This document shows, piece by piece, positions 614 through 52,022 of a stretch of 64,000 bases of DNA. The translations under genes were made by a program, and so were the position numbers. The DNA comes from Planctomycetota bacterium (lineage in GTDB: Bacteria > Planctomycetota > UBA1135 > GCA-002686595). Under the pieces are notes generated by a model. The model saw nothing but the letters and a program-made list of their open reading frames with translations. It did no database searches and was not told where the DNA came from. Where the stretch lies: positions 1-64,000 of the forward strand of contig JAPLOF010000055.1 in assembly GCA_026692665.1 (NCBI GenBank), in the 5' to 3' direction. The first letter of the stretch is position 1. Each line of letters begins with the position of its first letter.

Positions 614-2023
614 TCAGTGCCCTCCGCCCGCCTTCGGCCGCGCGTTCCACACGCGCGTGCACAGGATCAGGCCCACGACCGCGACCGCCGTCATCCACAT
701 CGGCCACGCCACCCAGTTCGCCGGGTCCTTCTGCGCGTCTCCCGTCGGCAGCGACGCGGCGAACACCGCCGACTGCAGCGCGCCGCCCAGGTACACGAAC
801 CCGTCGATCACGCCCGTGACGACCCCGGCGTTCTTCGAGCCGCCGAAGTCGGCCGACGCCGTGCCGGAGAGCATCCCGTGCACGCCGATCACGCACAGGG
901 ACATGAACACGATCGACCAGCCCACTCCGGGCGAGCCGAGCAGCACCCAGCAGCCGATCGAGCCCGCGAGCAGGCCGGCGTAGAGGATCGAGGCGACGGG
1001 ACCGCGGCGGGAGCCGAAGACGTGGTCGCTGATCGTGCCGGCGAAGACCCCGCCGAGGATCCCGGCGACGCACAGCAGCATGCCCCAGTTCGCATAGACG
1101 AACGTCTCGCCCTGCTCGAGCGCCACGGCGTACGGCCGGAACTGCTTCATCGCAGCTTGTCGCAGGAAGCCGGAGCAGAACTCGATCGCCACCAGGATCC
1201 AGACGACCGGCTGGGAGAGGAGCTTCTTCAGGACGGCGCGCAGCGGATCGGGGGTGAGCTGCCCGCTGGTCGCGTCGCCCGTGTCGAAGTCCGTGAGCCC
1301 GGCGGCGGCGGGCGAGTCGCGCACGACGAGGAACGCGGCGACGAACATGATCCCGAGCACGACGGACGGAACCCAGAACGGCGCGACGACGTCGACGCCC
1401 TTCGCCAGCATCAAAGACCAGTCGTAGCTGAAGTAGAGGCCCAGAGAGATCAGGATCCCGAACAGTCCGCCGAGCACGCCGCGTTCGCGCACGTGGAACC
1501 AGTGCGCGTTGACCTTGACGATCGAGACGGCGCCGAACGACTGGAAGTACATGTTCGCGGCGTTGAGCCACAGGAGCGACGTCCGGAGCGTCTGATCGGC
1601 GCCTTCGCTCTGCACCCCGTTCGCGTGGTGCGCCATCGCGAAGGCCATGCCGGCGTTCATCACGGCCGATCCGCCCGCCGCGAGCAGGATCGTCACCCGT
1701 CCACCCCACCGGTCCGTCAGGGGGCCGTTCAGGAGGAATGCGATCCCGTAGACCGCCAGGCCCACGCCGTCGATCTCGTTGAACTGCTTGCGGGAGAGGT
1801 AACCGGCCTTGTCGAGCTCGCCCGCGATCGCGGACAGGTTGTAGCGACCGAAGTAGAGGATCGAGTACGTGAGCCCCAGCACGATCCAGTTCCAGCGGCG
1901 GCGCTTCTTCAGGCGCTCGTCGTGCCCCAGATCCACGCGGGGCAGACGCGATACGACCACCGACACCGCCACCAGGAGGAGGAGGATCGGGAGCGAGTTC
2001 TCGAGCCAGGGGGGCAGGTGCAT
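614..2023 (-). CDS. MFS transporter, organophosphate:phosphate antiporter-like (GlpT/UhpT type)
   Basis: 469 residues, close to the usual 440-460 of the OPA family, with about twelve hydrophobic segments. The N-terminal cytosolic stretch is followed by YFGRYNLSAIAG in the first core helix, which resembles the conserved arginine-containing helix 1 of GlpT/UhpT. GPLTDRWGGR matches the loop 2-3 MFS signature, and a duplicate-like GTISDHVFGSRRGP lies in the second half. The protein would import or exchange phosphorylated compounds such as glycerol phosphate or hexose phosphate at the inner membrane; the substrate cannot be read from the sequence. It is divergent from the HAD hydrolase gene across 84 bases. 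The N-terminus is about 40 residues longer than in typical GlpT, with an extra predicted membrane helix. Confidence 0.8.
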   Translation of the reverse strand: MHLPPWLENSLPILLLLVAVSVVVSRLPRVDLGHDERLKKRRRWNWIVLGLTYSILYFGRYNLSAIAGELDKAGYLSRKQFNEIDGVGLAVYGIAFLLNGPLTDRWGGRVTILLAAGGSAVMNAGMAFAMAHHANGVQSEGADQTLRTSLLWLNAANMYFQSFGAVSIVKVNAHWFHVRERGVLGGLFGILISLGLYFSYDWSLMLAKGVDVVAPFWVPSVVLGIMFVAAFLVVRDSPAAAGLTDFDTGDATSGQLTPDPLRAVLKKLLSQPVVWILVAIEFCSGFLRQAAMKQFRPYAVALEQGETFVYANWGMLLCVAGILGGVFAGTISDHVFGSRRGPVASILYAGLLAGSIGCWVLLGSPGVGWSIVFMSLCVIGVHGMLSGTASADFGGSKNAGVVTGVIDGFVYLGGALQSAVFAASLPTGDAQKDPANWVAWPMWMTAVAVVGLILCTRVWNARPKAGGGH

Positions 2024-2093
2024 GCGCGGAGGTCTGGGAGGTGGCGAGGAGCGCAGGCTAGCAGCCCGCGCTGGAAGCGCGCGAATCCGCCGC

Positions 2094-2099
2094 TAAGTT
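2094..2099 (+). promoter_or_regulatory. TANNNT box 8 bases before the HAD gene start
   Basis: TAAGTT ends 8 bases before ATG 2108 and there is no Shine-Dalgarno sequence in the gap. It belongs to a recurring pattern in this window that suggests leaderless or very short-leader transcription. No convincing -35 element is visible. Confidence 0.4.
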
Positions 2100-2107
2100 C
2101 GGTGCCC

Positions 2108-2830
2108 ATGGGCTCCCCCCGACTGCGCGAGATCTTCCCCCGCATCGATGCGGCTCTCTCCCGGAACCGGCTGCCGATCGTGGTCTTCGACCTCGACTCG
2201 ACCCTGTTCTCCACCGCGCCGCGCAACCTGGCGATCCTGCGCGAGTTCGTCGACGAGAACGCCAGCATGCACCCGCACCTGGCCGACGTCGCCGAGCGGA
2301 TCGGCCTCGACGACATGGGCTGGAACGTGCACGAGGACCTGCGGCGCTTCGGATTCTCGGAGGCGGAGGTCCTGGCGCGCCTCAAGGGCTTCTGGTTCGA
2401 GCGCTTCTTCCGGGACGAGTACCTGGCGCACGACACGCCGGTCCTGGGCGCTGCCGCCTTCGTGCACGCCTGTCACGCACGGGGCGCCCTCATCTACTAC
2501 CTGACCGGGCGCCACGTCGGCGGGATGGAGATCGGGACCGTGCGATCGCTGCGCGAGAACGGTTTTCCGTTCTGGCGTGGGCGTTGCGTCCTGCACCTGA
2601 AACCGTCGTTCGAGATGAACGACTCGACGTTCAAGCAGGAGGCGGTGCTGGACGTGCGCTCGTACCAGGGCGAAGTGGTCGCGAGCTTCGAGAACGAGCC
2701 TGGCAATGCGAACATGTTCCTGCGCGCGTTCCCCGACGCGCTGCACGTCCTGCTCGAGACCATCCACTCGCCGAATGCGGAAGAAGGTTCCTCAGCGCTC
2801 GTGCGCACGGCCGACTTCGTCCTCCCCTGA
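2108..2830 (+). CDS. HAD-superfamily hydrolase
   Basis: 240 residues. Motif I is VVFDLDSTL, with nucleophile Asp28 and general acid Asp30. Motif II is the YYLTGR threonine. A lysine follows in FKQEA (motif III region), and FENEPGN near residue 200 is the expected acidic motif IV area. The cap lies between motifs I and II and is rich in aromatic and acidic residues (type C1-like). It is probably a soluble phosphatase of unknown substrate. The ATG at 2108 was chosen because the protein begins directly with a helix leading into motif I; the frame is open far upstream, but that stretch is arginine-rich antisense to the transporter gene and is not coding. Confidence 0.8.
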   Translation: MGSPRLREIFPRIDAALSRNRLPIVVFDLDSTLFSTAPRNLAILREFVDENASMHPHLADVAERIGLDDMGWNVHEDLRRFGFSEAEVLARLKGFWFERFFRDEYLAHDTPVLGAAAFVHACHARGALIYYLTGRHVGGMEIGTVRSLRENGFPFWRGRCVLHLKPSFEMNDSTFKQEAVLDVRSYQGEVVASFENEPGNANMFLRAFPDALHVLLETIHSPNAEEGSSALVRTADFVLP

Positions 2831-3774
2831 GGAAGTCCTTTCCGCTCGCGCGGCCGCGTACCTGCGCCCATGTTGGGCGTTGGTGAAATCGCCCGTGATC
2901 ACGCGATAAATCGCACGCGCGGGTGGCCGCAATGCAACTTCCTGTGTATCCTCTCTCGCTCCGAACGATGACACGATAAGGGCACACCGGTCGAGAGGCC
3001 GGGCCGCAAAGTCACGGGGCCGTCTCGCCGAAAACGCGAGCGGCTGGCTGGGCCGCCGAAGTCGTCGCTCCGATTCCACGGACGTCATCCGAGGGGCAGA
3101 CGGAACTCGTTCCGCCTTCGGGTTTGAGGTCTGGGATCGGGGACGTTTCTTCTCCCTCCCTTGCCCCGTCGCGCCTCCGGGCTCTTGCCGGTGGCGCGAC
3201 GGCCCTCTTCCCTCGAGGTCGGCGCGCGGTTCCACGGTGAACGCCGCGATGAAACAACGGGGAAGCAAGCTGACGACGAGGGTGCGGAGAGCGTGCGGGG
3301 AGAGTCCGCTCGTCCGCGGAGGGGCCCTTGTCGCGCGAGGCAGTGAGGGACGCGGCGTTCGCCCCTTCCACCTGCGCGACCGCGCTCGCTCGAGCGTGGA
3401 TGCGCAGTGGCCGACGGCCGGGCTCCAAGAGCCGGCGCTGAATGGCAGAGGCAGTGAGAGCTCTCCGCACCCTCTGGGTGCGGGGGCGGCGCGGATGTGC
3501 GGGACGGGGACCCCGCCTCCGCGCTTCAGGAAGGGGAGATGCACCCGCCGCTCCGTGGGGACGGGGTCGACGGGTGCTCGTTGGAGGAGAAGCGTTCGGC
3601 TGTCCGTGGGGACGGGCAGACGCGACGCTCTACCCGGCTCTTGGCCCGCGATGGGGAGTGCAATGGTCTAGGCCGTTGCACCGCGTGCCTGGGTCCCGGT
3701 TCGTCCGGGCCCATGCCGGGCTCCTTTGCGAGAGCACGAGGCCGCGCTTCGTGCTCTCGCTCTATTTGCGGGTG
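2831..3774. other. Gene-free GC-rich region with several hairpins
   Basis: About 940 bases with no convincing protein gene on either strand; the ORFs here are arginine/proline-rich and lack homology-like motifs. Structure is visible. A perfect 8-bp stem with 3-base loop lies at 3465-3483 (CCGCACCC/GGGTGCGG). The phrase GGCAGTGAG or GCAGTGAG recurs around 3341 and 3451. A 12-bp hairpin lies at 3728-3760. It could hold a long structured RNA. I looked for RNase P, tmRNA and cobalamin riboswitch signatures and did not find them. Confidence 0.4.
3728..3760 (+). terminator. 12-bp hairpin, possible terminator
   Basis: Perfect arms GCGAGAGCACGA and TCGTGCTCTCGC enclose a 9-base loop and are followed by a short TCTATTTG stretch, unusually T-rich for this region. 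It sits at the right edge of the gene-free region, immediately left of the giant inverted repeat, and could end a transcript coming from the left. Confidence 0.4.
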
Positions 3775-3893
3775 TGCGGCTGTACGGAGCCAGGCACGAC
3801 TCCGCCGTTTTCCTGCTGCTGCTGCTGCGCGCTCTGCGCGCAGCGGAAGCAGCAGGAAAACGGCGGAGTCGTGCCTGGCTCCGTACAACCGCA
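3775..3893. repeat. 119-base near-perfect inverted repeat (REP/MITE-like giant hairpin)
   Basis: Two 46-base arms (3775-3820 and 3848-3893) are reverse complements with a single mismatch. Each arm contains the phrase GTGCCTGGCTCCGTACA (in one orientation or the other). The 27-base loop holds a further perfect palindrome, TGCGCGC-TCT-GCGCGCA, so the whole element can fold as one long hairpin. It ends 5 bases from the stop codon of the M2 peptidase gene and could terminate transcription there. The length and single mismatch suggest a non-autonomous palindromic mobile element, comparable to elements mobilised by REP-associated tyrosine transposases. No transposase gene is in the window and no second copy was seen. 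Confidence 0.75.
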
Positions 3894-3898
3894 CGACC

Positions 3899-5716
3899 TC
3901 AGAGCGGCGGCAGCGTGCTCACGCGTCCGCGGTTCTGCTCGACGAGCCAGCGCCTCAGGGGCTCGAAGTAGTCGACCATCGGACGCGCCGAGAGCGGAGA
4001 GCCGGTCTTCTCGCGCAGGAGTTCGATCCAGTCGATGGTCGCCCCCGGGCGCATCATGGACTTGAGGAAGTCCCCCACCTCGCGGCGGCCGAAGTAGCAC
4101 GTGTCGTGCGGATCCTCGCGCAGGATGTTGTGCGCGATATGGTCGTGCAGCTGGAACAGCAGGACGTACGAGAGCGCGTAATCGTAGTAGGCCGCGGGAT
4201 CGTCGTTCACGTGCGTCTTCGTCGCCGGGTCGCACCAACGTTCGTCGCGGACGCCCGGCGGCGCGATCCCCTGGTACTTCTCGACGAGCTGCCACCAGCG
4301 TTGGTTCCAGCGTTCCGCCGGCAGGCCTTGGGTGTAGATCTCGCGCTCCCACTCGAACATCACCCCGGCGGACCAGGGCATGAACACGACGTAGTTCAGG
4401 GCTTCCTGCAAGAGGAGGCGCATCGGGTCGGGTCGCTGGGTCCCCACGTCGAGACCGACGGCCTGGATGAAACGCGGCTGCATCGCCGCGAGCCCCATCA
4501 TCGAGCCGAACGCCTCGTGACAGGCGCGCGAGGCGCCTTCGCGCATCAGGACCGGGATCTGCGGTGTCGAGTACTGCAGGTAGTAGTGGATGTGCCCCAG
4601 CTCGTGGTGGATGGTCTCGTAGTAGGACCCGGTGGGCACGACGCTCATCAGGCAGCGCACGTCGCGGTCCAGGTCCATGTGCCAGGCGGAGGCATGGTTG
4701 TTCTTCGAGAATCCCGCGTCGGCCGCCACGGGAAGGAGCGACGAACGCTCCCAAAAGGTGGGCGGCAAGGGCTCGAATCCCAGGCTCTGGTAGAAGCGAT
4801 CTCCCTGCTCGACGAGCCACTGCGGACTCTTGTCGTGCAGCGCGCCATCGAGGTCGAAGCCCTCGACCGGCGCGAGCGCCGACCACTCCTGCCCCCAGCG
4901 ATCCGGCAGCCAATGCGCGGGGATCAGATCCGGAACGGGCTGGCCATAGCGGCGGGCGAGTTCGTAGCGGGCCCAGGTGTGGAGCTCCCGGTACAAGGGA
5001 CGGAGCTCGCGCTGGATCCCGTCGATCTGCTGCGCGAGTTCGGCGGGCTTCATGCCGTACTCGCTCGCCATGTACGCGAAGTAGTCCGCGTACCCGAGGG
5101 CGCGCACGACTTCGTTGCGCAGGTTGCGCAGGTTCACGAGCCCCTCGCGCAGGGTCGGCCCGACGGCCTTCGAGGCTTCCCAGGCGCGGAGCCGGATCGC
5201 GGGATCGGCCTCCGTGCGCAGGATCGCGTCGATCTCCGTCGTCGTCGTGCGCTTGCCGTCGAGTTCGTACGCGAAGCCGTAGAGCTGCTCGGTCTGCTTC
5301 GTCTCGGCCGCGATGCGCTGCTGGACGAGCGTGCGAGCCGTCTGCGGGTTCCCTCCGGCCTTGCGCAGGATGGTCTCGAGCTCGCGGACCTGCAGGGTCG
5401 ACAGCTCGCGATTGCGCCGCAGGTAGGCGCGCGCGAGCTCGATGTTCTCCGTGCTGCCCGTGAACTCCGCCAGGGCCTCCTCGGCTGCGCGGACTCGCGC
5501 GCCCGCGGTCTCGTCTCCGGGCACGATCCTGGTCTGCGAGGCCCACTGTGCCTCCTGCGCGGCCAGCGTGAGCCGCTGGAACTCCGGCCCGTAGCGATCG
5601 AGGTAGCGCTGGACCTCCGCGCGCAGCGAGAGCTCCCCCGGGTCGCGGGACATGAAGCAGGCACCCCCGGCGAGGGCGGCGAGCAGGGCGATCGAGACGG
5701 TGATTCTGGTGCGCAT
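3899..5716 (-). CDS. M2-family metallopeptidase (peptidyl-dipeptidase A/ACE-like), lipoprotein
   Basis: 605 residues, the usual size of a single-domain bacterial M2 enzyme. Zinc motif HELGH lies at 371-375 and the third ligand is Glu401 in EGASRACHEAFG, matching the ACE pattern. Further family blocks include FWERSSLL and WHMD. It removes dipeptides from peptide C-termini. The start at ATG 5716 gives a signal peptide ending in the lipobox LAGGAC with Cys20, so it is probably anchored on the outer face of a membrane; the longer reading from 5854 would bury the signal peptide. It is divergent from the thioredoxin-like gene. The giant inverted repeat lies right after its stop. Confidence 0.9.
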   Translation of the reverse strand: MRTRITVSIALLAALAGGACFMSRDPGELSLRAEVQRYLDRYGPEFQRLTLAAQEAQWASQTRIVPGDETAGARVRAAEEALAEFTGSTENIELARAYLRRNRELSTLQVRELETILRKAGGNPQTARTLVQQRIAAETKQTEQLYGFAYELDGKRTTTTEIDAILRTEADPAIRLRAWEASKAVGPTLREGLVNLRNLRNEVVRALGYADYFAYMASEYGMKPAELAQQIDGIQRELRPLYRELHTWARYELARRYGQPVPDLIPAHWLPDRWGQEWSALAPVEGFDLDGALHDKSPQWLVEQGDRFYQSLGFEPLPPTFWERSSLLPVAADAGFSKNNHASAWHMDLDRDVRCLMSVVPTGSYYETIHHELGHIHYYLQYSTPQIPVLMREGASRACHEAFGSMMGLAAMQPRFIQAVGLDVGTQRPDPMRLLLQEALNYVVFMPWSAGVMFEWEREIYTQGLPAERWNQRWWQLVEKYQGIAPPGVRDERWCDPATKTHVNDDPAAYYDYALSYVLLFQLHDHIAHNILREDPHDTCYFGRREVGDFLKSMMRPGATIDWIELLREKTGSPLSARPMVDYFEPLRRWLVEQNRGRVSTLPPL

Positions 5717-10649: not shown

Positions 10650-10659
10650 CCGCGGTCGC

Positions 10660-10712
10660 GGATGCAACCGAGGGCTGACGTACGCGCCGTACGTCAGCCC
10701 TCGGTTGCATCC
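10660..10712. terminator. Perfect 25-bp hairpin between convergent genes
   Basis: Two 25-base arms are perfect reverse complements around a CGC loop. It lies between the convergent DNRLRE and radical-SAM genes, 10 and 11 bases from their stops, so it can act as a bidirectional terminator. No T-tract follows on either side; the stem is much longer than usual intrinsic terminators. Confidence 0.8.
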
Positions 10713-10723
10713 GGCTTCGGCGA

Positions 10724-28223: not shown

Positions 28224-28254
28224 ATCCCGGGTTCCGCGAGGCGGAACCCGGGAT
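28224..28254 (-). terminator. Perfect 14-bp hairpin
   Basis: ATCCCGGGTTCCGC and GCGGAACCCGGGAT enclose a GAG loop. It lies 31 bases after the stop of the YugP-like gene and upstream of the next leftward gene. It is likely the terminator of the YugP-like gene; no T-tract follows on the minus strand. Confidence 0.65.
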
Positions 28255-51984: not shown

Positions 51985-52022
51985 GGGCGGGTCCACCGGC
52001 GCGCACGCCGGTGGACCCGCCC
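51985..52022 (+). terminator. Perfect 17-bp hairpin between precursor and maturase genes
   Basis: GGGCGGGTCCACCGGCG and CGCCGGTGGACCCGCCC enclose CGCA. It begins 13 bases after the precursor stop and ends 10 bases before the maturase start. It has no T-tract. It may act as an attenuator or processing site, so that much more precursor than enzyme is made. Confidence 0.65.

Follow-up and report, generated by a model that had tools for sequence, protein, structure and literature searches.

A probable REPIN-like element at planctomycete gene ends, with outer arms that at a few sites mirror the neighbouring gene

What is a 119-base palindrome with nearly perfect 46-base arms doing between two genes of a planctomycete, and where do such long arms come from? 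The question is raised by positions 3774-3894 of the window, i.e. of the whole 64,000-nucleotide stretch analysed here, which is part of contig 55 of a genome of 4.58 Mb (64 contigs, 89.96% complete). An earlier sequence-only reading had described 46-base arms with one mismatch and a second palindrome in the loop, and both descriptions proved correct: the arms (3775-3820 and 3848-3893) differ only at 3780 (C/T), and the 27-base middle between them is itself largely self-complementary. A repeat search stretches the palindrome to 66-nt arms (3767-3832/3836-3901, 91%). The window has one palindrome with exact 30-base arms and a gap of at most 60, and five mononucleotide shuffles have none; folded as DNA, the segment 3765-3903 reaches -85.4 kcal/mol (z -17.5), whereas 200 dinucleotide shuffles average -31.7 (sd 3.1). 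Rfam searches with the element returned miRNA-hairpin and other matches, all far below the gathering scores, which we attribute to the long hairpin. The layout is that of a doublet, O - REP - I - loop - I' - REP' - O', where REP is the conserved part and the two inverted REP-like units fold as one hairpin, placed between a T-tailed hairpin (3728-3766) and the stop codon of a convergent gene at 3899:

3728..3766, + strand: separate terminator-like hairpin, T-tailed, just upstream of the element; kept in the congener G001 (same genus)
3774..3782, + strand: left outer arm (O), GTGCGGCTG, private to the site; pairs with 3886-3894 with one mismatch; other copies are without it
3783..3812, + strand: left REP-like unit, TACGGAGCCAGGCACGACTCCGCCGTTTTC, the conserved repeated part; its first 25 bases have 43 matches genome-wide, the reversed control 0
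3813..3855, no strand assigned: inner private palindrome (I) with a TCT loop; copy-specific but largely self-complementary
3856..3885, - strand: right REP-like unit, the inverted copy of the left unit
3886..3894, + strand: right outer arm (O'), CAACCGCAC; the site is empty in the congener G001
3899..5716, - strand: convergent gene, HELGH metallopeptidase-like (label from sequence reading); stop codon and outer arm are 4 bases apart

The neighbourhood holds a further feature. A c-di-GMP-I riboswitch at window 2971-3060 is followed by ~670 bases without a predicted gene, up to the terminator at 3728-3766, and window 2813-3770 aligns with the congener at 81% identity over 965 columns. The riboswitch-headed stretch 2971-3727 may be a long riboswitch-controlled noncoding RNA.

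The sequence-only reading had staked its proposal on further copies with a recognisable common phrase. These exist in dozens: with up to 3 mismatches the core TACGGAGCCAGGCNCNACTCCGCCG has 43 matches in the own genome, and the reversed pattern has none. The exact 25-base pattern gave no match in the genome-contig search, and no second copy was found inside the window. For at least 25 of the 43 matches a contig end is no more than ~150 nt away; 24 different ends are involved (a lower bound, the length being known for part of the contigs only), and the repeat has evidently broken the assembly. A broader core pattern was run on ten chosen relatives, with the reversed pattern as control, and yielded (matches/reversed) 36/4 in G001, 63/1 in G007, 109/1 in G017 (Pla86, the complete genome CP036296.1 of a Planctomycetes bacterium in the family to which the window's planctomycete belongs), 12/0 in G005, 2/1 in G034, 1/1 in G044, 0/1 in both G072 and G022, and 0/0 in both G012 and G054. 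With the whole element as query, 15 of the 101 genomes, counting the own one, gave matches at E <= 0.001, of which many were weak. The bases flanking TACGG vary between copies of the own genome, and GTAG is readable at positions 11-8 in at most 20 of 37 Pla86 doublets; no GTAG or GTGG tetranucleotide is fixed at the REP foot, and the family is therefore not a GTAG REP. Larger versions also occur: at locus L034 two 193-bp versions of the element (1196-1388 and 4584-4776), with related and partly palindromic interiors, lie 3.2 kb apart, and the genes that they flank read as FMN oxidoreductase and sialate-esterase-like (names from sequence reading).

Comparison with the congener reveals sites that lack the element. 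Window segments 2000-3770 (82%) and 3898-5681 (72%) align to adjacent stretches of G001 contig C68, where 23 bases stand in place of 127 in the own genome. Among eight further own sites compared with G001, the element is absent from the congener at seven (C63, C17:52268, C15/C41, C1/C57, C59/C35, C20 and C56), and no REP was detected at seven G001 loci checked in the correct orientation. The C20 and C56 sites contain ~300 and ~110 unrelated bases instead; the latter adjoins rpsO- and pnp-like genes, one on each side (again named by reading). At the remaining site, C17:53195, G001 has an element whose inner and outer stems differ from the own ones and whose start falls on another base of the gene end. 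The contig-end pairs in this comparison were picked for matching flanks and are uninformative on how common the outer stem is. Target-site differences, which had been suggested as a check between strains, are thus present, the comparison being with a related species of the genus rather than with a strain.

A REP-associated tyrosine transposase (RAYT) flanked by the same sequence had likewise been anticipated. This part of the earlier reading stands in the congener, where an intact 364-aa ORF (L220, 1584-2678) lies between inverted and nearly identical REPs, TACGGAGTCAGACTCCACTCCGCCGTTCTC and TACCGAGTCAGGCTCCACTCCGCCGTTCTT; in the own contigs (~90% complete) no transposase with element-matching ends was found. 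A decayed homologue at G001 L221 is likewise enclosed by inverted REPs. The L220 protein matches the REP-associated tyrosine transposase model NF047646 with E 1.8e-14 (53.9 bits, curated cut-off 80) and PF01797 with E 1.3e-5, above the curated cut-off; a sequence search against solved structures gave nothing at E <= 1. Nine aligned members share an invariant THFH, in agreement with the HUH motif of Y1 transposases, and all nine match PF01797 with E values of up to 10; the match of P0001 exceeds the cut-off, and that of the Pla86 member falls short of it. Pfam detected no C-terminal HTH (DnaA_C-like, HTH_23/28) in the nine, the one HTH match being HTH_3 at E 0.18. The gene lies between inverted repeats at six of seven loci scanned; at L315 the stretch first scanned had none, and inverted ends were located further out. 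Ten homologues could be measured with both ends in view, out of 24 loci listed, and they have similar inverted ends beginning TAC-NGNG, except that the right end of L333 reads ...CACCTAT; several other listed loci have no such end pair. The motif GGGGWSAS is absent from both ends at all ten loci (~64 nt per end).

The closest homologue in the own genome, at C52, is intact (342 aa, 44% identical) and has different inverted ends, GTGCCTGGCTAACTTCCCGCGAGTTCG, and that of Pla86 is flanked by double palindromes of another sequence. Because these two homologues have other ends, the link between element and transposase, observed directly in G001, is one that we infer for the own genome. The Pla86 palindromes (L332, 1266-1421 and 2528-2683; 156 bases each) represent another repeat family on both sides of the RAYT homologue, and near the downstream one there is a further 25-base inverted repeat in another register. 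A Pfam Y1_Tnp probe at E <= 0.001 found nothing in Pla86 and missed the REP-flanked G001 gene; the absence of RAYTs to which it pointed was withdrawn once the G001 protein, used as a query, had detected homologues in 40 of 101 genomes, among them the own genome and Pla86. The own genome has six Pfam Y1_Tnp matches, which we take for candidates of another RAYT group: no core (up to 2 mismatches) lies nearby in the stretches read, except for two weak core matches near the C58 gene. In Pla86 the interval 707294-708897, between two REP-like sites, was considered as well, and by eye its ORFs are unlike a transposase. G061, a genome of the same order, has 52 Pfam Y1_Tnp matches, far above any other of the 61 genomes searched.

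Terminal inverted repeats around a short noncoding core are also what a classical MITE would show, i.e. a derivative of a DDE-transposase insertion sequence that duplicates its target site. Such an origin is disfavoured and seems to us hardly credible: by eye the flanks contain no direct repeats but pair inverted or not at all, and what such ends enclose is a Y1 transposase gene.

The two private parts of the palindrome behave differently across copies. In 33 Pla86 doublets of 95-112 bp the arms of the inner stem have a mean identity of 0.91 within a copy (minimum 0.25) and 0.40 between copies, in an ungapped comparison that indels disturb; the spacer is variable and yet pairs. The outermost bases of the arms are private to the site and lie outside the repeat, which the sequence-only reading had not foreseen. 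At positions 11-16 from the core, 62-89% of 37 Pla86 doublets are paired versus 29-40% with shuffled partners, and at least five of these six positions pair in 21 of the 37 (500 shuffles: mean 0.7, maximum 4). In 19 of the 21 doublets with an outer stem, that stem meets the core without an unpaired base. Single REPs of Pla86 lie in stems of at least 11 pairs counted from GGCG, one mismatch allowed, in 12 of 18 cases, the first 4-6 of these pairs being conserved sequence. L187 and L191 have nearly the same inner stem and different outer stems, so the inner stem travels with the element, whereas the outer one is a property of the site. Not all copies have an outer stem: at least nine of the first 12 outer positions pair in five of 16 fully read short copies outside Pla86, and in seven of 18 when two Pla86 copies are added (two rows of this set are nested, and copies with more than 2 core mismatches, e.g. 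C17:53195, are left out). In the ten transposase-bearing copies, whose ends are separated by ~1.1 kb, contiguous outer pairing does not go beyond about six pairs. Over outer positions 1-12 the mean pairing is 0.41 in these, 0.59 in the 18 short copies and 0.34 in shuffled ones, as would be expected if the short hairpin is needed.

The elements are concentrated at gene ends. Out of 47 in Pla86, 22 lie between convergent genes, 20 between tandem and four between divergent ones, and one inside a predicted ORF, i.e. 46 of the 47 dispersed elements are located between predicted genes. The nearest stop codon is within 50 nt for 41 of the 42 convergent or tandem elements. Intergenic spaces of at least 60 bp in the same loci comprise 34 convergent, 106 tandem and 48 divergent ones; the genes were predicted with our own codon-score script, and this background is neither de-duplicated nor element-free. 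This position, together with the very stable fold (calculated with DNA parameters) and with effects of REPs on termination and mRNA stability reported in passages of PMC6006769, would suit palindromes kept by selection at the RNA level, as terminators or protectors of mRNA 3' ends, rather than mainly as mobile DNA. We regard this as quite improbable. The mismatches of Pla86 inner stems show no excess of G-T (7 G-T versus 13 A-C of 66, with the transcript strand undefined and part of the mismatches due to shifted alignment); the near-identical inner arms of L187 and L191 within different outer arms point to movement, and the congener has empty sites.

At three places the origin of the outer arms can be read from the neighbouring genes. 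Contigs C15 and C41 end in the two halves of what is presumably one element. They share a 23-nt outer arm plus the core, and in G001 their outer genes adjoin each other; that the two contigs are adjacent is concluded from the matching ends and this synteny rather than from a single contig. The C15 arm consists of the last five codons and the stop (LKKLK-stop) of a gene ending ...VQAALKKLK (peroxiredoxin-like by reading), whose G001 orthologue ends ...IQAALKRLG and stop; the reverse complement of the C15 arm forms the C41 arm, noncoding and situated before the next gene. In G001 we found no inverted copy of the C15 gene end (best 12-base match 9/12, shuffles 8-10). At C63 the left arm contains the gene end LAPLPE-stop (LAPLSE-stop in G001), mirrored with one mismatch by a noncoding right arm, and again G001 has no mirror arm. 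In G007 a perfect 37-bp outer arm covers the CGC-TGA ends of both convergent genes, ...KTPQR-stop and ...LAVAKR-stop. The three cases favour the copying of one flank, and we infer that the hairpin templates an inverted copy of its own flank.

Alternatively, the same mobile element could insert into the loops of hairpins, such as terminators, that already stood at gene ends, so that the outer arms would be the older part. Perfect hairpins without the REP core do exist in the window, with arms of 26 bp (10659-10713, with a 3-base loop, filling most of a gap between convergent genes), 17 bp (51985-52022) and 14 bp (28224-28254), and some outer stems could therefore predate the element. Short palindromes are visible by eye in G001 at the C55 and C17:52268 sites, divergent intergenic spaces are avoided (4 of 46 intergenic Pla86 copies), and stop codons are close. 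Against this, one of the two arms at C15/C41 and at C63 is coding sequence with an orthologue in the congener, which has no counterpart of the other arm, and at C17:52268, where G001 does have a hairpin, the own copy pairs at only two of 12 outer positions. Stem and core join without unpaired residues in 19 of 21 doublets, contrary to what loop insertion would lead one to expect. The ten transposase-bearing copies have no more than about six contiguous outer pairs, and among element-free Pla86 gene ends only eight of 105 have a stem of at least 8 bp (loops 3-9). Older arms therefore seem unlikely to us as the general explanation.

The MITE/REPIN-like mobile unit at a gene's 3' end that the sequence-only reading had proposed gains support from the dispersed copies with inverted ends, the empty site in the congener and the Y1 gene between inverted repeats there. 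Adding the mirrored gene ends at a few loci, we consider the element to be, with good probability, a non-autonomous REPIN-like unit of the RAYT/TIRYT type whose hairpin has been lengthened at many sites by an inverted copy of the flank. Two inverted REP-like ends enclose a private hairpin, and the unit, tolerated at gene 3' ends, would presumably be mobilised in trans by a Y1 (HUH tyrosine) transposase while folded as a single-stranded DNA hairpin. Once folded back, the element could use its 3' end to prime synthesis along its own strand, at the time of insertion or afterwards at a replication fork, copying ~5-40 bases of flank before rejoining. The outcome would be an inverted copy of one flank on the other side, at some sites including the stop codon of the neighbouring gene. 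That the mirror-image flanks stem from insertion itself is a more tentative idea, which we put forward as possible and do not lean on: the hairpin would be joined to the target at one end, and its free 3' end would fold back and prime copying of the target strand, neighbouring stop codon included. If true, a REP-like element would insert by a self-primed mode in which only one end is joined. The mirror-image flanks at many sites offer a readable footprint of events at or after insertion, and point to a route by which gene ends, stop codons included, could be copied; the dissemination of REPs is called poorly understood in the abstract of PMC8266576.

Several known systems come close. REPINs, i.e. 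REP doublets that form hairpins, were described in Pseudomonas fluorescens and other bacteria (Bertels and Rainey 2011, PMC3116915), and according to the sections of that paper covered here their spacers vary yet keep folding through compensatory changes; the pairing of the inner stem is therefore the known part of our observations. The planctomycete element resembles REPINs in its two inverted conserved ends, variable but pairing spacer, extragenic location, many copies and link to a Y1 transposase, and differs from them, as far as those sections describe them, in the lack of a conserved GTAG tag and in the further site-specific outer stem, which is sometimes a mirror of the flank. It also resembles the TIRYT/TIRtrons (Di Nocera and co-workers 2013, PMC3733652) and TnpAY1 subclass 2.1 (PMC6006769), for which these sources describe, in the parts considered, RAYT-like genes between long inverted repeats, and repeat copies that form moderate dispersed families, often as dimers. 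Unlike in TIRYTs, GGGGWSAS, reported in the same parts for some or most of their ends, occurs in none of the ten homologues' ends, and the C-terminal HTH domain that characterizes subclass 2.1 (PMC6006769) was not confirmed by Pfam. The 'bizarre' units of P. putida and P. fluorescens, in which a degenerate GTAG-1 REP adjoins unrelated stem-loops (PMC3733652, in part), share the joining of a conserved REP to unrelated self-complementary neighbour sequence; they differ in forming inverted repeats that flank transposase genes and in their hundreds of copies, and the portions of PMC3733652 at hand do not link them to a copied gene end. Nor did a mirror-copied flank appear in the portions of PMC3116915, PMC3733652, PMC6006769 and PMC8266576 or in the open-access literature searched. 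The element is thus a variant of the REPIN / TIR-associated tyrosine transposase kind, and its new feature is the mirror-copied flank.
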